Assembly: GCA_937883775.1 (NCBI GenBank)
Contig: CAKZXZ010000061.1
Location: 1 to 60,695 of the forward strand
DNA length: 60,695 bases
Direction of reading: 5' to 3'
DNA from: an uncultured Paracoccaceae bacterium
GTDB lineage: Bacteria > Pseudomonadota > Alphaproteobacteria > Rhodobacterales > Rhodobacteraceae
Part shown: one piece after another, positions 28,334 to 46,913 of the stretch
Layout: every line of letters starts with the position of its first letter
How positions within the stretch are numbered: position 1 is the first letter of the stretch
The notes under the pieces: generated by a model
The model's database searches: none
The model's input: the letters and a program-made list of their open reading frames with translations, nothing else
Told to the model about the DNA's origin: nothing
Position numbers and translations under genes: made by a program

Positions 28334-28352
28334 ACATAAGTTACGCTTATGT
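28334..28352 (+). promoter_or_regulatory. Perfect 7-bp inverted repeat over the argP translation start
   Basis: ACATAAG (28334-28340) and CTTATGT (28346-28352) are inverted repeats around TTACG, and the ATG of the LysR-type gene (28349-28351) lies in the 3' arm. Just upstream, GTGAA (28316-28320) and TTCAC (28331-28335) form another dyad. LysR-type autoregulatory binding or an mRNA start-site hairpin would both fit. Confidence 0.45.
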
Positions 28353-29221
28353 ATGACCCTGCTCTCTTGATGACCCTGTCCGCCGTGGCACGCTGTGGCA
28401 GCTTTGATCTGGCTGCCGCACAATTGTCGATTACGCAATCGGCGGTCTCTCAACGGATCAAGACCCTTGAGGATCGTGTCGGCACCGTACTGATCCAGCG
28501 CGGCACGCCCAGCTTGCCGACCGATGCAGGCACCCGTCTGATCCGTCATGCCGATGAAGTTGCCCTTTTGGAACAACAGCTTTCTCGCGACATGGCGATG
28601 GCGCAATCCCAAGCCACGCCAGTGCGCATCGCGGTGAACGCAGACAGCCTTGATACCTGGGTGCTGCCCGCCTTGGCAAAATGCGAAGGATTGCTGTTTG
28701 ATCTGGTGGTCGACGATCAAGACCATTCGGCCCGCTGGCTTCGTCAGGGCGATGTGGCTGCAGCAATCACCAGCCGGGCCGAGCCGATCCAAGGGTGCGA
28801 CAGCTTTGCGCTGGGTGCGCTGCGCTACCGCGCCACTGCCAGCCCGGGCTTTATGGCGCATCATTTTGCTGAGGGGGTGACCGAAGCGGGCCTGCGCGCC
28901 GCACCCGCGCTGACCTATTCGCGCCTTGACCGATTGCAACAGGATTGGGCCGCCCGTCATCTGGGCAAACGTGTGCCTTTGTCGACCCATATGCTGCCCA
29001 GCACAGTGGGGTTTGTGACCGCGGCCTTGCTTGGGCTGGGCTGGGGGATGAACCCTGATCCTTTGGTCGGTGACTTTCTGGAAAGCGGGCAGTTGATCGA
29101 GGTTGTCAAAGACACTCCGCTCGAGACACCGCTTTACTGGCAGATCAGCCGCATCACAGCCAAACCTCTGAACTTACTGACAGAAAATATCCGCAAAGCC
29201 GCAATGGACGCCCTGCATTAA
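28349..29221 (+). CDS. argP: ArgP/LysG-type LysR-family regulator of the amino acid exporter
   Basis: A 290-residue LysR-type regulator. The HTH is at about residues 18-47 (AAAQLSITQSAVSQRIKTLE). The effector domain starts with VRIAVNADSLDTWVLPAL and continues VVDDQDHSARWLRQGDV, which are hallmark stretches of the ArgP (IciA)/LysG branch. These proteins sense lysine and arginine and activate the divergent lysE/argO gene. No strong ribosome site is visible; the start sits in an inverted repeat. Confidence 0.9.
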   Translation: MYDPALLMTLSAVARCGSFDLAAAQLSITQSAVSQRIKTLEDRVGTVLIQRGTPSLPTDAGTRLIRHADEVALLEQQLSRDMAMAQSQATPVRIAVNADSLDTWVLPALAKCEGLLFDLVVDDQDHSARWLRQGDVAAAITSRAEPIQGCDSFALGALRYRATASPGFMAHHFAEGVTEAGLRAAPALTYSRLDRLQQDWAARHLGKRVPLSTHMLPSTVGFVTAALLGLGWGMNPDPLVGDFLESGQLIEVVKDTPLETPLYWQISRITAKPLNLLTENIRKAAMDALH

Positions 29222-29224
29222 ACC

Positions 29225-29242
29225 CGCGTTAAGGTTAACGCG
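29225..29242. repeat. Palindrome just after argP
   Basis: CGCGTTAAGGTTAACGCG is a perfect 8-bp inverted repeat around GG, four bases after the argP stop codon. It has no T tract, so it is not a classic terminator. Function unknown; it could be a protein-binding site or a 3' mRNA hairpin. Confidence 0.5.
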
Positions 29243-29283
29243 CGCGGCGTGGCGCCACTTGAAATACATCTGAGACAATCGCG

Positions 29284-29460
29284 ACGCCCGCTTTCGCTCT
29301 TTTAGATCTGACCGGAAGCCGCTTCGTTTTTTTGGAGTCTCCTGCCGGAAACCGCTTCGCTTTTTTGGTGTCTTTTACCGGAAGCCACTTCGCTTTTTTT
29401 GGAGTCTCCTACCGGAAGCCGCTTCGCTTTTTCCAAGTATCCTCGCCGAAGGCACCGCCG
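29284..29460 (-). repeat. Tandem array of 33-34 bp repeats directly downstream of coxG
   Basis: The 239-base gap between argP and coxG holds four tandem units starting at 29311, 29344, 29377 and 29411, each reading ACCGGAAGCCGCTTCG, a T run, then GGAGTCTCCT with small changes. A fifth, degenerate relative is at 29284-29310. Each unit has two short dyads (GAAGCcGCTTC and GGAGtCTCC). The array is fused at its left end in the minus sense to GCCTTCGGCGAGGATACTTG, which begins at the coxG stop codon. A similar element occurs at 46881-46913. Confidence 0.85.
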
Positions 29461-29925
29461 TCAGGCGGTTTCAGCCTCTGCATCATCACCCTGCACATGC
29501 GCCTGAAAATTATCGAAAAACGCGTTCGCCATCTTGGTCGCAAAGCCATTGATGATCCGGTTGCCCAATTGCGCAATCTTGCCACCAACCTTTGCATCCA
29601 CCTCGTATACCAGTTCTGTCCCCTCGGGGACGGCGTTCAACACAACCGATGCCGCTCCCTTGGCAAACCCGGCGACACCGCCCTTGCCCTCGCCGCTGAT
29701 CCGGTAACTTTCGGGGTGGACAACATCTGATAGCGTCACGGCCCCTTTGAACGTGGCTTTCACCGGGCCGACTTTTTGGGTCACCACCGCGTCAAAGCCA
29801 TCCTCGGGTGTGCCGCTCAATTCGGTGCAGCCCGGAATACACGCTCGCAGCACATCGGCCGAGTTCAAGGCCTCCCAAACCGTTTCGCGATCTGCAGCGA
29901 TCATGCGGGTTCCTGACATTTCCAT
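29461..29925 (-). CDS. coxG: CoxG-like SRPBCC protein
   Basis: A 154-residue START/SRPBCC-fold protein of the CoxG family (EMSGTRMIAADRETVWEALN, then ACIPGCTELS at residues 32-41, and the C-terminal GNRIINGFATKMANAFFDNF). CoxG is known as an accessory protein that helps anchor CO dehydrogenase to the membrane, and the family also binds small hydrophobic ligands. The ATG at 29925 has a strong GGAGGAGG site 7-8 bases upstream. No cox structural genes adjoin it; the CoxL-like gene is at 210-2507. It is 16 bases downstream of the ScfR regulator gene, probably in one operon. Confidence 0.88.
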   Translation of the reverse strand: MEMSGTRMIAADRETVWEALNSADVLRACIPGCTELSGTPEDGFDAVVTQKVGPVKATFKGAVTLSDVVHPESYRISGEGKGGVAGFAKGAASVVLNAVPEGTELVYEVDAKVGGKIAQLGNRIINGFATKMANAFFDNFQAHVQGDDAEAETA

Positions 29926-29941
29926 AGGCAAACCTCCTCCG

Positions 29942-46860: not shown

Positions 46861-46913
46861 CCGACTTGCAGAGGTCGGATGCCTTCGGCGAGGATATTTT
46901 GAAAAAGCGAAGA
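46861..46913 (+). repeat. 3'-flank repeat element with hairpins, related to the array at 29284-29460
   Basis: CCGAC/GTCGG (46861-46878) form a hairpin and are followed at 46881-46913 by GCCTTCGGCGAGGATATTTT and GAAAAAGCGAAG, which matches the start of the array after coxG (GCCTTCGGCGAGGATACTTG, GAAAAAGCGAAG) in the same sense relative to the upstream gene. It probably belongs to a genome-wide repeat family. Confidence 0.75.

Follow-up and report, generated by a model that had tools for sequence, protein, structure and literature searches.

The REP/BIME elements of enterobacteria are short dispersed hairpins found behind genes, between convergent genes and in operons, in inverted or tandem copies, and REP hairpins protect mRNA 3' ends. 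The element described here, which we call the head, is likewise a short dispersed hairpin at gene ends and within operons with inverted and tandem copies, but it is strongly strand-biased, occurs without a Y1 transposase in the tested genomes and belongs to another family, the Rhodobacteraceae; to our knowledge its sequence is unrelated to REP/BIME. With intrinsic (Rho-independent) terminators it shares its place at gene ends, a hairpin with a T-containing stretch behind it, and inverted pairs between convergent genes, whereas its stem is weak, its U-tract short, its tail conserved and some of its sites lie before co-directional start codons. In place and kind the head resembles REP-type elements and terminators. 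Two further comparisons come from the Rhodobacterales. In the puf operon of Rhodobacter, an intercistronic hairpin and AU-rich RNase E cleavage set segmental mRNA stability (PMC6238624). Rhodobacter belongs to the same taxonomic order, and a hairpin between cistrons with AU-rich RNase E cleavage is what we propose for the head, but puf is one operon and the head is dispersed, and the two are compared by description, not by sequence. The HRC-8-4 motif is a terminator-like stem with conserved nucleotides that is specific to Rhodobacterales and lies mainly between cco operons (PMC8632094); the head is also terminator-like with conserved nucleotides but is dispersed behind many genes, and it is set apart from HRC-8-4 by description, not by sequence.

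The window, a stretch of 60,695 nucleotides with 58.8% G+C from an uncultured Paracoccaceae bacterium, contains an open reading frame of the CoxG family on the minus strand (coxG, 29461-29931, PF06240, E 2.2e-31; stop codon 29461-29463) that converges with an argP/lysG-type LysR regulator on the plus strand (28349-29221, TIGR03298, E 1.9e-104; stop codon 29219-29221). Three features follow one another in the coxG sense. The first is a hairpin, ACCGCC-TGAC-GGCGGT (29454-29469, minus strand), which forms in the local fold, holds the coxG stop codon in its loop and lies directly 5' of the head. The second is the head itself (29422-29453, minus strand), GCCTTCGGCGAGG-ATACTT-GGAAAAAGCGAAG, which starts 7 nt past the coxG stop codon. 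It is made of a small stem-loop of the CUUC-GGC-GAGG type (29441-29451) whose stem CCUNC/GN'GG was assigned by covariation, an AU core, here ATACTT (29435-29440), and the tail GGAAAAAGCGAAG (29422-29434), inside which the third feature begins. This is a tandem array of 33-34 bp units on the minus strand (29311-29432), each with a constant part AAAGCGAAGCGGCTTCC and a variable part. Since the order is hairpin, head, units, the array arises from the head's tail.

The array predicted from the sequence alone is real: Tandem Repeats Finder reported it with a period of 33, 3.6 copies and a score of 188, the best of five rows in the window, and a degenerate fifth unit, AAAAGAGCGAAAGCGGGCG, was read from the sequence at 29284-29310, its end lying at about 29284. 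The constant 17-mers were found by pattern search at 29414-29430, 29380-29396, 29347-29363 and 29314-29330 on the minus strand, with the unit starts spaced by 33, 33 and 34 bp. The consensus unit with up to three mismatches matched once in the window and never in 100 shuffles, and such a unit is not expected by chance. A CRISPR array is rejected, as the original prediction had argued, because the units abut and no unique spacers separate the repeats. That the array starts at the coxG stop codon did not hold, since the head intervenes and the units begin in its tail. Pairing between units, which had been proposed to give alternative structures, does appear in minimum-energy folds, but on neither strand is the fold of the intergenic region better than that of its shuffles (z 0.24 and 0.44). 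On the other side of the gap, a palindrome, CGCGTTAAGGTTAACGCG, lies on the plus strand at 29225-29242, 3 nt past the argP stop codon. Palindromes of the type TTAACCTTAA recur close to heads at L004, L008, L012, L027 and L067 and are possibly a second dispersed element.

The 177-nt stretch at 29284-29460 had been expected to have other copies in the genome, and 40 own-genome matches were found at E up to 10, mostly through the head. The window itself holds a second, solo head between convergent genes, 41 nt past a stop codon (46881-46912, plus strand). Allowing one mismatch, the pattern GCCTNCGGCGNGGATANTT gave 39 own-genome copies and no control match, and a covariance model built from 24 copies gave 89 matches at E up to 10, of which the best 61 (E up to 0.0095) are the heads examined below. 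The AU core of these 61 is RTATTT in 55, the AUACUU form of coxG in four and neither in two. Beyond this genome, the head form GCCTNCGGCGNGNNTATTT, with 15 fixed bases, was present in 110 of 149 Rhodobacteraceae genomes, in up to 156 copies (G149), with no control match in all 149; the remaining 39 genomes lack this strict form. A stricter form with AAAG close behind occurred in 15 of the 149. When 289 genomes of the class were sampled, all four members of the family matched the head pattern, while outside the family 5 of 285 genomes had one copy each, a rate near that of the control pattern (three matches); none of these five has a Watson-Crick N:N' pair, and one has G/T. The tails vary by genus: GGATATTT-N1-5-AAAGNNGAA was found in 22 of the 149 family genomes, with one control match in 149, and forms such as GAAGAAAGTGGAA (G092) and AAAAGAAGAA (G005) occur. 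The class pattern with the tail AAAGATGAA was limited to 8 of the 289 genomes, with at most one or three copies each.

Thirty-five plasmid records matched the head query. Most are from Rhodobacterales (Paracoccus, Ruegeria, Tritonibacter, Leisingera, Salipiger and others), and two are from Vibrio, with an 18-nt match within a gene; among phages, only a 17-nt match in a Vibrio phage was found. The 29100-29600 part of the window contained no Rfam 15 family at the gathering score, and up to E 5 it gave one chance match below threshold (12.8 bits vs 37), and across 20 loci Rfam 15 gave one tRNA only. A search of the mostly open-access literature by motif letters and topic found no description of the head element. 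Several arrangements of the heads were seen. A second class with a longer hairpin of the GGGGGC-TTT-GCCCCC type, whose outer pairs vary, and with ACCCCCAGG before the GGATATTT core, was found at L097, L103-L106, L108 and L116 of the own genome and at L076 of G002, some of these being weaker matches. Heads set back to back about 20 nt apart form inverted repeats of the 30-bp class at L138, L139, L140 and L141 (G128) and in the matches of G081. On Paracoccus plasmids, two heads with their tails stand in direct tandem (L165 and L173, about 1153-1235), so tandem duplication of the element extends beyond the genus of the window.

Evidence for the hairpin comes from a pair of positions that change together. 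N and N' of GCCTNCGGCGN'GG, which are 29449 and 29443 in the coxG head, were complementary (T/A, C/G or G/C) in all 74 copies counted from the own genome, G002, G005 and G021, whereas the best of 10,000 shuffles reached 45. The other listed copies agree by eye, with one violation in the family, a C/A in G400. A UNCG tetraloop, first suggested by GCCTNCGGC, was rejected, as N is coupled to N' six positions further along. In Ruegeria sp. TM1040 and Tritonibacter mobilis the sequence is GCCTCCGGCGGAGGTATTT, whose two additional changes make all five pairs perfect. In an alignment of 24 copies the covariation score was higher than in any of 500 shuffles or any slid version; only one of the four pairs is variable on both sides, and for two of five measures 380 of 500 shuffles did at least as well. 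The stem includes a T/G pair. Folding speaks against a strong structure: the 41 nt that end at the core are no more stable than their shuffles (mean z -0.28, n=61), the mean z is -0.85 for the opposite strand behind the core, and at the coxG copy the minimum-energy fold favours a competing GCC/GGC pairing over the stem of the head.

The position of the heads relative to genes was determined with gene calls from a codon model trained on 116 long open reading frames. In the own genome an upstream gene was called for 58 heads, of which 54 lie behind it in sense (P 3e-12), at a median distance of 25 nt from the stop codon (n=54), and four are antisense; the other three of the 61 have no such gene called. 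The gene downstream of the 54 sense heads is convergent in 37 cases, co-directional in 15 and could not be assigned in two. The control set, 228 gene ends in 240,695 bases from stretches partly picked for holding heads, had 72 convergent and 156 co-directional ends, or 30 and 64 when there was room for an element, and the convergent excess (37:15 vs 30:64) was significant against these (P 5.9e-6) and against all ends (P 2.2e-7). At 20 loci of six other genera and G017, 20 of 25 heads lie behind a sense gene and five are antisense, as called with the same codon model, which is less suited to them. Sixteen plasmid regions of named Rhodobacterales were also inspected, with a gene table that is incomplete by design; two had no annotation near the match and one no listed upstream gene. 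The head lies behind a sense gene in 11 of the 13 with usable annotation, in one case (recG) about 335 nt away, and these 11 are not independent since the rfbB-rfbD junction accounts for four of them and a single Leisingera junction for two. The other two heads lie behind an antisense gene and over a short antisense CDS. These results support the sense-oriented 3'-UTR element that the original prediction had suggested, now transferred from the array to the head.

Dispersal of this kind could also come from a DNA repeat, REP-like, selfish or a protein-binding site, that is tolerated behind genes and whose hairpin matters as DNA. The dispersed extragenic hairpin in many copies that marks REP/RAYT-type elements is indeed present, in the 39 own-genome copies with at most one mismatch and in the 110 family genomes, and near-identical copies with genus dialects, inverted and tandem copies, and array units that recur at unrelated loci all suit such a repeat. 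Against it, the heads are strongly biased in strand towards the upstream gene, they are retained at orthologous sites (see below), and the T/G stem pair works in RNA but not in duplex DNA. A Y1 (RAYT-type) transposase (PF01797) was found in none of eight genomes, compared with 5 of 14 control genomes, so membership in the REP/RAYT system was rejected. We consider a DNA repeat unlikely. For the mobile miniature repeat offered by the original prediction the signs are mixed, as the eight genomes have no Y1 transposase and yet one tail unit comes back at unrelated heads.

A more serious competitor is a leaky intrinsic terminator specific to the clade, in which one or more hairpins are followed by the short U-tract AUAUUU, and the array multiplies weak stops on the plus strand (GAAG-CCG-CTTC-GC-T5-7) that face argP. 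The position at 3' ends and the convergent excess agree with this, as does the finding that the stretches scanned for 51 of the 61 heads are free of any other classic terminator; the crossing inverted pairs of G128, two of which fold to -76 and -72 kcal/mol, also count for it. Yet the stem is weak and the U-tract short, 5 of the 61 heads already sit behind a classic terminator, the conserved tail past the U-tract is left unexplained, and in the array a unit taken singly folds at -3 to -6 kcal/mol and a terminator pattern scan reported no terminator-like site. Co-directional start codons also lie 8-33 nt past some heads in the plasmid regions. The rfbD start codon is 8-11 nt past the head match at rfbB-rfbD, nitrite reductase starts 19 nt past the match behind nirJ, and an error-prone polymerase gene starts 20 nt past a head that follows the gene of a DNA polymerase Y; among the 15 co-directional heads of the own genome, 7 have a called start no more than 30 nt away. 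Heads between such closely spaced genes, as at rfbB-rfbD, indicate that the head is not an absolute terminator. Leaky termination is possible, and we give it less than an even chance by a clear distance. Heads between close co-directional genes were seen at L158, L159, L160 and L166 (1201-1233) and at L171 (1201-1231), which include rfbB-rfbD and the polymerase genes, and are candidates for segmental mRNA stability sites.

The array was compared with congeners at the coxG site and elsewhere. At coxG, G001 has the head and one unit and G002 has a head with another tail and no unit, so the copy-number comparison called for by the original prediction leaves the array in a single species there. 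Further arrays or partial arrays follow three heads of the own genome (C91, C93 and C42, where the second unit of C42 is degenerate), one head of G001 and five of G002. Four arrays of G001 or G002 were compared with the window genome only, which has a head without an array at each matching site. In total the head is present at all five resolved orthologous sites and the array in one species each time; the C91 site aligned poorly with L152 and was left out of this count. The head is thus common to the species and the array is not, which goes against the array as the functional unit. Within a locus the variable parts of the units resemble each other more than they do across loci (P 0.005 in the initial comparison, where the first "unit" of L078 was spurious, and 0.004 on a cleaned set of 24 units of eight arrays, from which L006, L011 and the degenerate final unit of L066 were dropped). 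Mismatches to the unit grow away from the head in six of eight arrays, are equal in two and fall in none, a gradient to which ascertainment may contribute since the loci were found through the unit next to the head. The same tail unit also recurs at unrelated heads, which local duplication alone does not explain; recombination between heads as its source is a guess. The array is best read from these comparisons as a recent, local duplication of the tail that is secondary to the head.

It is very improbable that the array itself acts, for example as a phased protein-binding array or a switching RNA that controls coxG. The spacing of 33, 33 and 34 bp is close to three helical turns, but unit length drifts from about 31 to 34 across loci, arrays follow other genes elsewhere, the coxG site has one unit or none in the congeners, and the fold z is near 0. 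The idea that arrays exist to stop convergent transcription was rejected, because 6 of the 8 arrays with both neighbours called lie between convergent genes and two between co-directional ones, no more than heads generally. Plasmids hold little of the array: 26 records matched the array query in short stretches only, none over 80% of it. A two-unit pattern had ten matches in genome contigs, five of them in unrelated phyla, and these five were discarded since none has GGATATTT in the preceding 60 nt and four lie inside frames open for 97 to 837 codons. In a Chloroflexi contig (L136:3-49, minus strand), an in-frame repeat of the SEAAFS type matches the two-unit pattern with no preceding head.

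Comparison of the copies establishes that the head lies close behind stop codons in sense and is kept at orthologous sites, that positions in its small hairpin stay complementary from copy to copy and between genera, and that it has an AU core, mostly RUAUUU, and a tail specific to the genus. The reading that we prefer, with a probability of roughly 0.45, is that the head acts as an RNA 3'-boundary element of Rhodobacteraceae. An enzyme of the RNase E type would cut the AU core behind the hairpin or hairpins, and 3' exonucleases would be slowed by the hairpin that stays on the upstream mRNA. Final 3' UTRs, mostly between convergent genes, would be served by this processing and protection, while between close co-directional genes the head would uncouple the two cistrons. 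The array would be a later step in one genus, a duplication of the tail (AAAAAGCGAAG and the following segment) at a small number of heads, and may add weak hairpin-plus-T-run stops on the argP strand. An AU core in DNA of the window's G+C content fits the preference for AU-rich sites in a GC-rich transcriptome that PMC6238624 reports for R. sphaeroides RNase E. Processing and protection rank only slightly ahead of leaky termination, because only about 2% of the R. sphaeroides RNase E sites map to 3' UTRs (PMC6238624), because R. sphaeroides RNA 3' ends that depend on PNPase yielded no recurring motif in a MEME search (PMC7866481), and because the coxG core is AUACUU. The fold z of -0.28, the limited two-sided covariation, the 39 of 149 genomes without the strict form and the antisense heads also count against the boundary element.

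Taken as a whole, and a little short of even odds in our estimate, the head may be an undescribed RNA punctuation element of Rhodobacteraceae, a short covarying hairpin with an AU core and genus-specific tails that would set mRNA 3' boundaries at tens of sites per genome, including within operons, and whose tail would have given rise to arrays in one genus. If this is true, a single recognisable sequence would end or trim mRNAs in large numbers throughout a big and environmentally important bacterial family, the annotation of 3' UTRs and operons would improve, and the covarying 3'-end hairpin becomes directly testable. The head would also offer a natural punctuation part for roseobacter genetics, and the arrays illustrate how such an element expands inside a genus.
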